Shown here piece after piece: positions 52,149 to 55,994 of a stretch of 64,000 nt of DNA. The position numbers and the translations under genes are program-made. Position 1 is the stretch's first letter; every line of letters begins with the position of its first letter. This DNA comes from Idiomarina aquatica (GTDB taxonomy: Bacteria; Pseudomonadota; Gammaproteobacteria; Enterobacterales; Alteromonadaceae): contig NZ_PIPS01000003.1 in NCBI RefSeq assembly GCF_003987185.1, forward strand, positions 124,001-188,000. Reading direction: 5' to 3'. Under the pieces are notes generated by a model, which saw only the letters and a list, made by a program, of their open reading frames with translations, was not told where the DNA came from and ran no database searches.

Positions 52149-52655
52149 ATGTTGACGCTGTTGGCCAAATTATTAAAGGCCTTAAACTCAGAAACCAGCC
52201 CCTGGGCGCTCGCTATGGCGATGGTGCTGGGCATGATTTTGGGGTTGACCCCCTTGTGGCGGGTACACAACCTGATCATTCTGCTGGCCGCACTTATTTT
52301 TCGCGTTAACCTCACGCTGTTCCTGATTTCGTTTGGTGTGTTCTCAGGACTCGCTTATCTGCTCGACCCTTTATTTCACGAATGGGGACTCGCAATCCTG
52401 CAAGCTGATAGTTGGCAGGGGATCTACGAGGCCATTTATGCCACAGCAGCGGGTCGTGTCAGTCAGTTTTATCACACCATCACCATGGGTAGCCTGGTAT
52501 TTAGTTTATTAATCAGTCCTGTGATCGCGGCCTTAACCTATTTTGTGGTGGTTAATTACCGCAAACGCATTCAGCAAACCTTGTTAAAGTTAAAAATTGT
52601 GCAGGTTATCCGCGGTAGTCGTTTCTGGCAGTTGTATATGGATTTACGGGGGTGA
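52149..52655 (+). CDS. TIGR03546 family membrane protein
   Basis: This 168-residue protein of the TIGR03546 family has several membrane segments (PWALAMAMVLGMILGLTPLW, LIILLAALIFRVNLTLFLIS). It always accompanies a TIGR03545 gene, as here with a four-base overlap. ATG 52149 has AGGAG eight bases upstream, so an upstream in-frame ATG at 52122 is rejected. The function is unknown. Confidence 0.87.
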   Translation: MLTLLAKLLKALNSETSPWALAMAMVLGMILGLTPLWRVHNLIILLAALIFRVNLTLFLISFGVFSGLAYLLDPLFHEWGLAILQADSWQGIYEAIYATAAGRVSQFYHTITMGSLVFSLLISPVIAALTYFVVVNYRKRIQQTLLKLKIVQVIRGSRFWQLYMDLRG

Positions 52656-52657
52656 GT

Positions 52658-54409
52658 ATGAAACGCAGTATAATCCGCTGGCCGGGACTGGCCGCCTTCG
52701 CTGCCATCGTTGGCTTACTGGTCATTGTTTCCTGGTTATTTCTGGACGCTATTTTAAAAGTGACGCTGGAATATGGACTGGGGCGGTTAAATGGCGCCGA
52801 AGTTAATATTCAGAAAGTTGAACATAAGTGGTCGCCGTTAACCTTGACCGCCTACGATGTGCAGGCGACCGACCCGGCCAAACCATCCCACAACCAAGTG
52901 CAACTGGAAAAATTCAGTGCCGATGTGTCCGCGGCGGAGCTGTTACTGGGGCGCATCCATATCGAGCAGCTCGACGTTGTGGGTGTGCGTGTGGATCAAG
53001 CCCGCAAGCAAGGCGAAGGCGAGGTTTATGTCGCGCCCTCGAAAGAGGACATCAAAGAATGGGCCTCCGGTAGTTGGGAGCAGTTAAAAGTTTCATTGCC
53101 ATCAACCGATGAAATTGTTCAGCAAGTCGGCTTGCAGACCGAACAGATCCTGACGGAAGCAGAAACCCAGATTGAGCAACAACGCGAGCAGTTCGAGCAG
53201 GCCAAAGCAGCGCTGCCGACGAAGGAAACGTTGCAGCAGTATCAGCAGCAGGTAAAAGCAATTACCGAAGGTAAGGTTGAAGGTCTTGGGGATATTGCCG
53301 CGCGCAAAGAAAAACTGGACAACGTTAAGGCAGCCATCCGCCAGGATAAAGAAGCGATCCAAAAATTCCGGCAGCAGTTAAGTGAGTCTGCTGATGTCGT
53401 GAAAACTCAGATTGCCCGAGTCAAAGAGGCCCCGGAAAATGACATCAACCGTATTCGCAACTTTTTCCAGTTAAATGAATCTGGGCTACAGAACGTCACC
53501 GGCTTGTTGCTCGGTGATAAGGCACGTCAATGGAGCGAATATCTGTTACTGGCATATGAGCAACTAGCACCGATGCTGGCGCGCTCGGCAAATACCGAAA
53601 CGGTCGAGAAAGTCCGCGGCGAAGGTGAGAGCCTGTCATTTGTAGAAGACGACGCACCCCCGGAGTTCTGGATCAAGCAAGCCCGCACCGAAGTGATGAT
53701 TGGGGACACGGCCGTTAACATCGATTGGCAAAACATCACCCATCAACATGATTTATTAGGTCAGCCTACGACTTATCAGGCCCGAGTGGATAATGGCGAC
53801 CTCTGGCAGGCGTTTAATTTGGATGGCGAGCTATCGCTCCTGTCGTCGGGCATTGACGCCAAACAGCAGTGGCAGCTAAAAGGAGCCAACGTAAAAAATT
53901 TAGGTCTTAGCGACAGCAGTGAACTGACCGCGGCAATAACCTCGGCACTGATTGACAGTGACGGGCGGGTGTTAGTCCGAGGTAACCAATTGGATGGTGA
54001 AGCGATCATCCGTATGCTCGATTTAGCGGTTACCGCACAGGGCAGCAGCAAAATCACCAATGCCATTGCCCAAGCGCTGGCGCAATTAAAACGCCTGGAT
54101 ATCAATACCAAAGTGGGGGGCGATATCCTCAATCCAAAACTGAACCTAAACTCAGATCTCGACCAACAGCTGGGCAAACTGCTATCTCAAACCGCCATGG
54201 CGGAGGCACAAACCAAGCTTGATGACATAAAATCTGAACTGAGCGCCAAAGTCGAAAACCAACTGGGCCCCAAAAACCAATTACTGGAAGACATTACCCA
54301 ACTGAACGGCCAGGCCGAAAGCTTCGACCAGCAACTCGAAGAATTGCTAAAAGCCAAAATCGAAGACAGTCTCAAAGACAAACTCAAAGACCGCCTATTC
54401 GGCTCGTAG
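52658..54409 (+). CDS. TIGR03545 family protein
   Basis: This protein of about 583 residues has an N-terminal membrane segment (GLAAFAAIVGLLVIVSWLFL), an AsmA-like N-terminal region (GAEVNIQKVEHKWSPLTLTA, then LEKFSADVSAAELLLGRIHI), and a long coiled-coil middle section rich in Gln and Glu, probably periplasmic. It pairs with the TIGR03546 gene. ATG 52658 is used; the GTG at 52652 overlaps the previous stop. The stop codon TAG is the first three bases of the repeat element at 54407, so the C-terminus may have been set by insertion of that element (inference). Confidence 0.87.
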   Translation: MKRSIIRWPGLAAFAAIVGLLVIVSWLFLDAILKVTLEYGLGRLNGAEVNIQKVEHKWSPLTLTAYDVQATDPAKPSHNQVQLEKFSADVSAAELLLGRIHIEQLDVVGVRVDQARKQGEGEVYVAPSKEDIKEWASGSWEQLKVSLPSTDEIVQQVGLQTEQILTEAETQIEQQREQFEQAKAALPTKETLQQYQQQVKAITEGKVEGLGDIAARKEKLDNVKAAIRQDKEAIQKFRQQLSESADVVKTQIARVKEAPENDINRIRNFFQLNESGLQNVTGLLLGDKARQWSEYLLLAYEQLAPMLARSANTETVEKVRGEGESLSFVEDDAPPEFWIKQARTEVMIGDTAVNIDWQNITHQHDLLGQPTTYQARVDNGDLWQAFNLDGELSLLSSGIDAKQQWQLKGANVKNLGLSDSSELTAAITSALIDSDGRVLVRGNQLDGEAIIRMLDLAVTAQGSSKITNAIAQALAQLKRLDINTKVGGDILNPKLNLNSDLDQQLGKLLSQTAMAEAQTKLDDIKSELSAKVENQLGPKNQLLEDITQLNGQAESFDQQLEELLKAKIEDSLKDKLKDRLFGS

Positions 54410-54447
54410 CTTGCGCCCTTGGCGGTAGCTTGCGCCTTTGGCGCAAG
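54407..54447 (+). repeat. Left terminal inverted repeat of the nested element
   Basis: The 41-base left end begins TAGCTTGCGCC and contains a second direct copy of GTAGCTTGCGCC at 54425-54436, followed by TTTGGCGCAAG. It matches the right end at 38 of 41 positions (mismatches at positions 12, 13 and 18). Its first three bases are the stop codon of the TIGR03545 gene. Confidence 0.8.
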
Positions 54448-54611
54448 TTGGCCGTAAAGCGAGCCCGCTTCTGTCAGAGCTCGAGGGGGGTTGACCAGGA
54501 ACCGCCACGAGCACGTCCGTGTGGGCTTGTTTCCGGCCATCCATGGCCTCCAACATTCCTGGTCAACCCCCCTCAAACTCTGACGCGCGTACTCACTTTA
54601 CGGTCAACTTG
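54444..54611. repeat. Hairpin A of the nested element
   Basis: The arms are 54444-54501 and 54556-54611. The inner 19 bases pair perfectly (54483-54501 with 54556-54574), and the rest of the roughly 57-base arms pair with several mismatches. The 54-base loop (54502-54555) contains a further small stem GGCCAT-CC-ATGGCC and the string GAGCACGTCCGTGTG. Confidence 0.8.
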
Positions 54612-54620
54612 CGGAGATCG

Positions 54621-54759
54621 TGACAAGCAGGCACAGGATTTGTTGCCCCCGTGGCAGGGGGTGTCGAAGGCCAGGGATGGCCTGAGACAAGCGCACACGG
54701 ACGTGCTCGTAGCGTCCCCCTGCCACGGGGGCAACAGAGCCTGTTAAGCCTGCTTGTCA
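54621..54759. repeat. Hairpin B of the nested element
   Basis: The arms are 54621-54661 and 54716-54759; the inner 21 bases pair perfectly (54641-54661 with 54716-54736). The stem sequence is unlike hairpin A, but the 54-base loop (54662-54715) is the reverse complement of loop A with eight differences. Confidence 0.8.
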
Positions 54760-54774
54760 TGACCGCCCCCCTCC

Positions 54775-54815
54775 CTTGCGCCAAAGGCGCAAGCTACGGC
54801 CAGAGGCGCAAGCTA
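54775..54815 (-). repeat. Right terminal inverted repeat of the nested element
   Basis: The 41-base right end is the mirrored copy of the left end. Read on the minus strand it starts TAGCTTGCGCC, and those first three bases are the stop codon of the esterase gene at 54813-55994. Confidence 0.8.
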
Positions 54816-55994
54816 CTCGAGGAAGGTTTTTAGGGTGTTGGCTTTTTGCTGGATGCTGTAGATGCCGTCGAGGTGTCCCCAGGGGCCGTTGATGTGTTCG
54901 ATGGTGACGTCTTTGTTCAGGCTTTGTAGTTGCTCAGCAGCGGCTTCGGCCATGTAGGGCATCAGCAGTAGATCGTTGCTGGCGGGTAGAAACAGGGTTT
55001 TGGCGCTGATGTTTTGTAAGCCTTGTTGCAGGGTCTTTTGGTGTCCGGCAACGAACAGCTGGTTGGCACGCACGAGGTATAAAATATGATTGGCATCGGC
55101 CAGGGGGGCGCGCTGGCGGCTGCTTTCATAGAGCCATTGTGCGGCTGGTAGTTGATTGTCTACGGTATCCAGGCCTTGCTCTGGCAGGGTCTCTTGTGCG
55201 GGGGCGAGTTGGTTGAAAATGGTCGGGTGCATGGCACCGTGGGTGATCAACGCCTGTGCCATGGTTACTCCATCCAAGGGTGCTTCGGCGTCATAGTAAT
55301 CACCGCCGTTCCAGTTTGGATCCAGCTTGATCGCTTGTGACCAGGCTTCTAAGCCAGCAATGGTCCAGGCGTCCATGGATGCGGTACCAATAACCGATAC
55401 CATCCGCTCAACCCAGTCCGGGTAGCTTGCCGCCCACTCGATCGCTTGTAGTGAGCCCATGGATGCGCCGATAACGGCATGCAGTTTTTTTATGCCAAGG
55501 GATTCCAGCACCGCTTTTTGCACATTAACAAAGTCGCGAATCGTTACCACCGGAAAGTCGAGTCCATAAGGCTTTCCGGTGGCCGGATTGATACTGGCAG
55601 GGCCAGTGGTGATGACCGATGGCAAATGAGGGTAAGCGTTTACTAACGAGTCGACGCTGACAACGTAATACTTATCGGTATCAATCGCTTTGCCGGGACC
55701 GATAATCGCGTCCCAGTAACCGGCCTGTTCATCGTCGCTTGAGTATTTGCCGGCGGCGTGGCTGTTACCTGAGAAAAAGTGCGTTATCAAAATCACATTA
55801 TCTTTATTCTCATTTAATTGGCCATACGCTTCCCAGCCGACTTGCAGTTCCTGGATGGTTTCACCGCCATGAGTGACGTACTCATCCAGGGTGAAACGTT
55901 GTTTTTCGACCAGCATGGGTTGTTGCTGGGCCCATCCGGTCAGGCTGAACAGCAGGGTAGTCAGCCACAGAGCGAGTTTGGCGGTGCATTTCAT
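54813..55994 (-). CDS. Exported MetX-like alpha/beta hydrolase (E22-type esterase)
   Basis: This 393-residue protein of the homoserine acetyltransferase (MetX) fold has a signal peptide (LALWLTTLLFSLTGWAQ), so it is a periplasmic hydrolase and not a cytoplasmic acyltransferase. The nucleophile is in GASMGSLQAIEWA, the acid in the PASNDLLL stretch, and the His in GPWGHLDG. It resembles the E22 family of MetX-like esterases. GGAGAAG precedes the ATG, which overlaps the upstream ligase stop by four bases. Its TAG stop lies in the repeat element. It probably frees an organic acid used by the ligase and permease partners (inference). Confidence 0.87.
   Translation of the reverse strand: MKCTAKLALWLTTLLFSLTGWAQQQPMLVEKQRFTLDEYVTHGGETIQELQVGWEAYGQLNENKDNVILITHFFSGNSHAAGKYSSDDEQAGYWDAIIGPGKAIDTDKYYVVSVDSLVNAYPHLPSVITTGPASINPATGKPYGLDFPVVTIRDFVNVQKAVLESLGIKKLHAVIGASMGSLQAIEWAASYPDWVERMVSVIGTASMDAWTIAGLEAWSQAIKLDPNWNGGDYYDAEAPLDGVTMAQALITHGAMHPTIFNQLAPAQETLPEQGLDTVDNQLPAAQWLYESSRQRAPLADANHILYLVRANQLFVAGHQKTLQQGLQNISAKTLFLPASNDLLLMPYMAEAAAEQLQSLNKDVTIEHINGPWGHLDGIYSIQQKANTLKTFLE

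Follow-up and report, generated by a model that had tools for sequence, protein, structure and literature searches.

Paired gene-end hairpins in Idiomarina aquatica belong to a dispersed repeat family of candidate CsrA-binding RNA elements

A nested palindromic element between two convergent genes

We analysed an intergenic element of 411 bp located at positions 54406-54816 of a 64,000-nucleotide stretch of the Idiomarina aquatica genome (contig NZ_PIPS01000003.1, positions 124,001 to 188,000; this whole stretch is called the window below). The element lies between two convergent genes, runs from a GTAG end to a CTAC end and contains two hairpins placed back to back. We consider it probable, with limited confidence, that it is a dispersed CsrA-binding RNA element of gene ends. 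The features of the locus are the following (window coordinates; REP, repetitive extragenic palindromic; genomes and loci of our sets are cited by G and L numbers).

54406..54447, + strand: left end, GTAG-tagged REP-type palindrome (partial copy 54406-54424, full copy 54425-54447)
54442..54613, head on - strand: hairpin A (lower stem 54442-54468/54587-54613, upper stem 54473-54501/54556-54584)
54502..54555, - strand: head of hairpin A, with two ANGGAY loops in a conserved three-way-junction core
54613..54767, head on + strand: hairpin B (lower stem 54613-54632/54748-54767, upper stem 54633-54661/54716-54744)
54662..54715, + strand: head of hairpin B, with GGA at 54675-54677 (P3 loop AGGGAU) and 54699-54701 (P2 loop ACGGAC)
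54775..54816, - strand: right end, inverted copies of these two REP-type units
52652..54409, + strand: upstream convergent gene, TIGR03545 family protein, stop codon provided by the element
54813..55994, - strand: downstream convergent gene, MetX-like putative esterase (NF005262), stop codon provided by the element

The terminal inverted repeats (54406-54447 and 54775-54816) are 42 nt long and 93% complementary. In each hairpin, upper-stem arms of 29 nt, again 93% complementary, enclose a 54-nt loop, and the two loops match each other in inverted orientation (87% over 53 nt). An initial annotation of this DNA had described terminal inverted repeats, two hairpins and mutually matching loops in a nested palindromic element of 409 bp; inverted-repeat computation recovered all of these features, and the length was corrected to 411 bp by the GTAG and CTAC ends. 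RNA folding of the 417-base region gave an energy z score of -20.2, and none of 100 dinucleotide shuffles was equally stable. The full left REP unit (54425-54447) consists of GTAG followed by CTTGCGCC-TTT-GGCGCAAG. Both flanking genes take their stop codon from the element ends: TAG at 54407-54409 for the upstream gene and, read as CTA on the plus strand at 54813-54815, TAG for the downstream gene.

The head of hairpin A was assigned to the strand opposite to that of the earlier reading. It forms a three-way junction with a P3 hairpin, UGUU-GGA-GGCC-AUGGAU-GGCC-GGA-AACA, and a P2 hairpin, CAC-ACGGAC-GUG. The small stem GGCCAT-N2-ATGGCC that had been noticed in the loop is this P3 hairpin. The GGAs of hairpin A lie at 54540-54542 (P3 loop AUGGAU) and 54516-54518 (P2 loop ACGGAC), both on the minus strand; 21 nt separate the two GGAs of hairpin B. 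The earlier suggestion of a structured RNA made from both strands thus came close, as the conserved strands of the two hairpins sit on opposite DNA strands.

The element belongs to a dispersed repeat family

A BLAST-type search of the I. aquatica genome with the whole region returned 57 matches, many of them to the end palindrome only. This palindrome, CTTGCGCCNNNGGCGCAAG, occurs at 37 places in the genome, and a reversed control pattern at none. The 54-base loop, whose uniqueness would have spoken against a family, recurs at further I. aquatica sites, always within a long stem, and in relatives. One copy is degenerate and has lost its stem (L017), and another is a deletion derivative (L011). 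A covariance model built from eight I. aquatica copies (R1) gave 13 matches in this genome. Two are in the window, at 54472-54585 on the minus strand (hairpin A, 121 bits) and 54632-54745 on the plus strand (hairpin B, 116.6 bits), both copies being part of the training set. R1 matches were present in 12 of 16 genomes of the genus and in 14 of the 25 genomes searched, with up to 32 per genome (150 of 250 matches were listed).

The exact 23-base core was found in 49 stretches of named genomes: 21 in Marinobacter, 19 in Idiomarina, three in Tahibacter, one in a Halomonas metagenome-assembled genome, one in Arsukibacterium, and four in Methanolinea, Nocardiopsis and Acidobacteria, which we took as chance matches. 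R1 confirmed full hairpins in Marinobacter, the Halomonas assembly and Arsukibacterium. Tahibacter, where R1 gave a 26-base partial match, and Methanolinea, Nocardiopsis and Acidobacteria, where it gave none at the four loci, were not counted among the hosts.

Hairpins diverge from each other and lie at gene ends

Neighbouring hairpins diverged in 56 of 58 cases (47 of 49 within 450 bp and all nine at 450-1100 bp). Of the two remaining cases, L099 involves a partial match and L086 is a counting artefact: retention of the weaker match on the reverse strand (29 v 110 bits) led to the score '++', and the true order of this pair is diverging. Beyond this set, same-direction neighbours were seen in G033 and G129. 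Some of the wider Marinobacter pairs span a whole gene and hence belong to two junctions, and single hairpins made up 40 of 78 clusters.

Among 74 elements with reading frames on both sides, called by length, the flanking genes were convergent in 40, co-directional in 34 and divergent in none; the corresponding numbers for 178 nearby junctions lacking an element were 17, 119 and 42. Three Marinobacter species (L144, L142, L163) carry hairpins at the gene junctions of an operon for acyl-CoA dehydrogenase, enoyl-CoA hydratase and biotin carboxylase, and hairpins also occur in an Arsukibacterium acyl-CoA operon (L164, genes named by eye).

This strong gene-end placement, together with the very stable stems, could be explained by an RNA structure that halts transcription or shields 3' ends from exonucleases, as proposed for REPs, with no role for CsrA. 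REPs are placed alike: passages of PMC3733652 describe them at gene ends and take their GT pairing to indicate transcription. However, this explanation leaves unaccounted for the conservation of the head rather than the stem and the fixed spacing of the ANGGAY loops (see below), and no U-tract was found at the window locus: a scan of 54200-55000 gave no intrinsic terminator (GC hairpin followed by a T run). We therefore regard it as unlikely.

Stems change in sequence and remain paired

Stem sequences are mostly unrelated between I. aquatica sites, with some subgroups of mutual resemblance. In the eight I. aquatica copies, 95.6% of cells were paired, against 68.9% in shuffles, and both sides had changed in 32 of 43 pairs; sliding the partner arm lowered pairing to 37.5-51.2%. 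Across 115 distinct rows, in an alignment fitted to the structure, the figures were 94.0% paired and 59.2% in shuffles. This bears out the initial idea of selection for structure, since stems change between copies and yet stay paired. We suggest that stem sequence drifts freely because the stem only has to pair.

The same behaviour was examined at orthologous sites. Among orthologous hairpins with an identity of 75% or more, counted on predicted pairs with 30-nt flanks included, both partners had changed in 27 pairs and a single partner, without loss of pairing, in 37; a further 52 pairs were broken and 1191 unchanged (an alignment set labelled 'liuB-liuA first', which included the Marinobacter locus L167, was not used). 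At two Marinobacter operon junctions the stems had diverged further. Counted against one reference in both cases, the acyl-CoA dehydrogenase/enoyl-CoA hydratase junction gave 28 double changes, 12 single, 23 broken and 65 unchanged pairs, and the enoyl-CoA hydratase/biotin carboxylase junction gave 25, 2, 19 and 66, respectively.

The two strands of the hairpins were then compared through their mismatches. Arms were aligned to each other with pair type ignored, for 112 distinct hairpins (5 of 117 matches were dropped as short or identical). Read on the head strand, the stems held 4975 Watson-Crick positions, 326 G-U and 86 A-C. G-U exceeded A-C in 87 hairpins, was lower in 10 and equal in 15; outside the R1 model columns the numbers were 135 and 47 (p 5e-11). 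This excess of G-U over A-C on the head strand favours an RNA form.

This bias bears on the proposal that the structure is conserved as DNA, namely that a DNA protein such as gyrase, a recombinase or an IS110-type bridge-RNA transposase recognises it as a cruciform or as a single-strand hairpin. The near-perfect palindromes agree with it, as do two IS110-family transposase genes: one (PF01548, PF02371) interrupts the head of an I. aquatica copy (L012 2507-3760, G000:C1 about 741.5-742.8 kb), and the other lies between two hairpins at an mdh-ispB junction (L060 6669-7781). IS110-type elements may target these structures. However, G-T tolerance limited to the head strand of each hairpin is not expected for a double-stranded cruciform. 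The cruciform protein-binding site considered in the initial annotation is disfavoured for this reason, and a single-stranded DNA hairpin may be compatible with the bias. Overall, we judge conservation as DNA to be very improbable.

The heads carry two CsrA-type sites at a fixed spacing

Two CANGGANG motifs were found on the head strand of 153 of 161 distinct hairpins (R1 matches of at least 95 nt) and on the reverse strand of one. The gap between the two GGAs was 21 nt in 92 of the 153, 22 in 39, 20 in 16, 19 in two, 23 in one and other in three, so that 150 fell between 19 and 23 nt. ACANGGANGU was present in 113 of the 161 hairpins, UACANGGANGU in 65 and UACARGGAUGU in 26. In the 115 distinct rows (alignment A3), the P3 GGA was invariant, the P2 GGA varied in one row at each of two positions, and the positions flanking the GGAs varied.

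According to passages of PMC7652899, the CsrA consensus obtained by systematic evolution of ligands by exponential enrichment is RUACARGGAUGU, with the GGA in hairpin loops, and one CsrA dimer bridges sites at least 10 and at most 63 nt apart, with an optimum above 18 nt. The heads agree with this description in having GGAs in hairpin loops and two sites at bridging distance. They share the same features with CsrB, CsrC and RsmX/Y/Z, which also have GGA in the loops of short hairpins and more than one site at bridging distance. Unlike a CsrB-type small RNA, where one gene holds many sites, the Idiomarina elements are many two-site heads dispersed over gene ends. Titles in the literature on CsrA with REP or intergenic repeats, or with sponges or 3' untranslated regions, did not point to such a system.

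A CsrA gene was present in 21 of 21 relatives, and three CsrA-family genes were found in I. aquatica:

G000:C2:12750: CsrA-family gene
G000:C4:160527: CsrA-family gene
G000:C2:146025: CsrA-family gene

No CsrB match was obtained in the I. aquatica genome at E<=0.001. In G012, which has no R1 matches, we observed a CsrB-like RNA with many AGGAT motifs (L183 979-1287, minus strand; 31.7 bits, under the Rfam cut-off of 71), and blastn with this stretch found no match in other Idiomarina. Rfam may thus miss CsrB in Idiomarina. The idea that the elements replace a lost CsrB is unsupported; diverged CsrB genes are possible, as the G012 match illustrates.

The heads are related to the TwoAYGGAY RNA

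The initial annotation had not recognised the family. Using cmscan, two copies at L014 aligned across the whole of the Rfam TwoAYGGAY model (RF01731), with 30.0 and 29.1 bits; 30.0 was the best I. aquatica score among the matches listed, and the gathering score is 43 bits. Matches to microRNA models of Rfam, also below cut-off, were discarded as look-alikes due to the long hairpin. The heads resemble TwoAYGGAY in their long base stem, in the P3 and P2 hairpins with A-Y-GGA-Y loops, and in the CAAG and CGG-like junction bases. Two terminal hairpins sit on the base stem, with AYGGAY loops that are replaced by AGGGAU or AAGGAU in some copies. The Idiomarina group differs in its shorter P2, in a GGA/GGA internal loop in P3 and in the unconserved stem sequence. 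Members of Rfam grade likewise form diverging pairs in some genomes (G306, G196). These sequence comparisons suggest that the heads are related to the TwoAYGGAY RNA, at a level below the Rfam cut-off.

Among relatives, 4 of 40 genomes reached the RF01731 cut-off, as did 13 of 274 in a wider sample of the class. R1 recovered four of 14 loci found through RF01731 (L043 among L041-L045, and L178, L181 and L182 among nine). A large Idiomarina and Marinobacter subfamily appears to escape the RF01731 model. TwoAYGGAY was one of 104 motifs reported by Weinberg and colleagues (PMC2864571), and was predicted to bind CsrA on motif grounds (PMC4333381). The passages of these and two further papers (PMC11701678, PMC11661157) that deal with this RNA do not mention repeats, diverging pairs or gene ends.

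REP-type ends, presence at orthologous sites and apparent exchange of heads

The window copy has an inverted pair of GTAG-tagged REP hairpins, the arrangement that characterises REP doublets forming hairpins (REPIN) and bacterial interspersed mosaic elements (BIME). Its likeness to these REP systems and their REP-associated tyrosine transposase (RAYT) includes the inverted palindromes at both ends, the gene-end placement and a RAYT gene in the genome (NF047646, 128.8 bits against a cut-off of 80, C1:530664-531230). Two partial Y1 transposase matches of equal score were also observed (G000:C1:835794-835937 and G000:C1:916654-916797). In contrast to such systems, the window element has a structured interior of 330 bp, most copies of the hairpin pair have no detectable REP, and the distribution of RAYT does not match.

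Both neighbours were adjacent in 12 genomes (a thirteenth match, L118, was dropped since the partner gene is lacking). The element was present in I. aquatica and G005 and absent in the other ten, where the spacer is about 20-35 nt, so the orthologous site varies in presence and absence, in line with the initial annotation. In both carriers the GTAG end gives a TAG stop to the two flanking genes, and the REP stem differs (CTTGCGCC in I. aquatica, CTCGCGCA in G005) with pairing kept. The target duplication proposed for the flanking CTCG was not borne out. Each CTCG overlaps the GTAG or CTAC end of the element itself by one base, and CTCG is not duplicated around the same-site element of G005, whose flanks read CTC|GTAG and CTAC|TGT; this comparison concerns the window site. 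Copying of the stem from local DNA at insertion was not supported at this site: the ten element-free loci have short spacers, with no room for either arm.

These observations bring in the explanation that the element is primarily transposable, a REPIN/BIME-like unit or a miniature inverted-repeat transposable element moved by RAYT or another enzyme, with the hairpins as its ends or cargo and no host role. The GTAG-type ends, the 37 palindromes, the RAYT gene and the insertion found at two of 12 orthologous loci all agree with it. So does G014 (L046-L054), where a hairpin pair is part of an element of about 690 bp with conserved ends, CAATTCTTTACYGCGG; its nine fetched copies are about 90-95% identical, the hairpins being better conserved than the remainder. 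However, REP hairpins stood at both ends in 4 of 35 elements checked and at one end in four more. Among 13 genus genomes, hairpins occurred without a RAYT relative in G002, G003, G006, G010 and G011, and the reverse was true of G008 and G009; as RAYT is not co-distributed with the hairpins, we consider it an unlikely mover of the hairpin unit. No transposase was found to recur between hairpins as a constant partner, and compensated drift at orthologous sites is unexpected for mere cargo. A primarily transposable nature is in our opinion rather unlikely, although the relation to mobile DNA suspected initially is retained through the REP-type ends and the RAYT gene.

Other Idiomarina species differ in the heads and upper stems that they carry at the mdh-ispB junction, and likewise at the acnB junction, while the lower stem at each site is shared. 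The grouping of species by head type differs between the two sites, and in G016 and G007 the 3' arm of one type is retained behind a complete hairpin of the other type. We read these differences, seen in sequence comparison, as modular replacement. A reading frame of 110 amino acids lies between the acnB-side hairpin and the opposite one in three species (L057 16107-16439, L058 3189-3521, L059 14986-15318). At E<=1e-5, the L057 copy matched no Pfam family. Judged by eye, the frame resembles one member of a toxin-antitoxin pair; only a remnant is left in G016.

Discussion

Strand-specific G-U tolerance, invariant GGA loops and gene-end placement favour a CsrA-docking RNA. Each hairpin is a long paired stem carrying a three-way-junction head, and in the mechanism that we propose its two A-N-GGA-Y loops, about 21 nt apart, would be docked by one CsrA/RsmA dimer. 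A transcript reading through from either flanking gene would first include a hairpin in reverse orientation and next one in head sense; since the pair is symmetric, each crossing transcript would have one sense head, whichever gene it starts from. Read-through and 3' untranslated transcripts of the flanking genes would then offer CsrA a docking site at the 3' end. The fate of the mRNA would thereby be coupled to this protein, and a dozen or more copies together would titrate it. In the window copy this unit is bounded by REP palindromes that also provide the stop codons of both neighbours. Transcription, CsrA binding and an effect on mRNA or CsrA level are what we infer; the dock may act by protection, destabilisation or titration.

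Several observations weigh against a CsrA-docking RNA. RF01731 gave no match at its gathering score in loci L144, L142, L163, L164 and L055. R1 was trained on eight I. aquatica heads, so that head conservation among its matches is partly by choice. The stems of the 112 hairpins also contain 322 other mismatches and 350 gap columns, and the counts are not independent, as loci were chosen for holding matches and include orthologous loci of several species. A simple scan of the window element found no promoter-like or terminator-like site. At the acnB locus, a sequence resembling an intrinsic terminator (by eye) follows the first hairpin, and the head-sense form would therefore be missing from the mRNA of that gene. 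Idiomarina genomes without the element still carry CsrA (G008, G009, G012). Finally, CsrA was present in 17 of 17 TwoAYGGAY-positive and 52 of 63 negative genomes (p 0.06), a co-occurrence too weak to serve as a test.

More broadly, and as a tentative proposal only, several gammaproteobacteria might use a distributed form of CsrA control. REP-like gene-end elements with two back-to-back TwoAYGGAY-type docks would link many unrelated genes, in output as well as decay, to CsrA, and together they would work as a CsrA sponge. The docks would be spread and swapped as modules, the stem being a disposable self-complementary handle, as suggested at orthologous sites, where heads change and the lower stem is shared.

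The function of TwoAYGGAY has been unproven since 2010, with CsrA binding predicted (passages of PMC4333381). The present analysis gives this RNA a setting: it is multi-copy, arranged in diverging pairs at gene ends, with pairing kept on the head strand, and sometimes lies within REP-bounded elements. The CsrA idea thereby becomes directly testable. If it is true, dispersed repeats would gain a route into a global regulator, and a poorly understood RNA family would be tied to genome-wide control.

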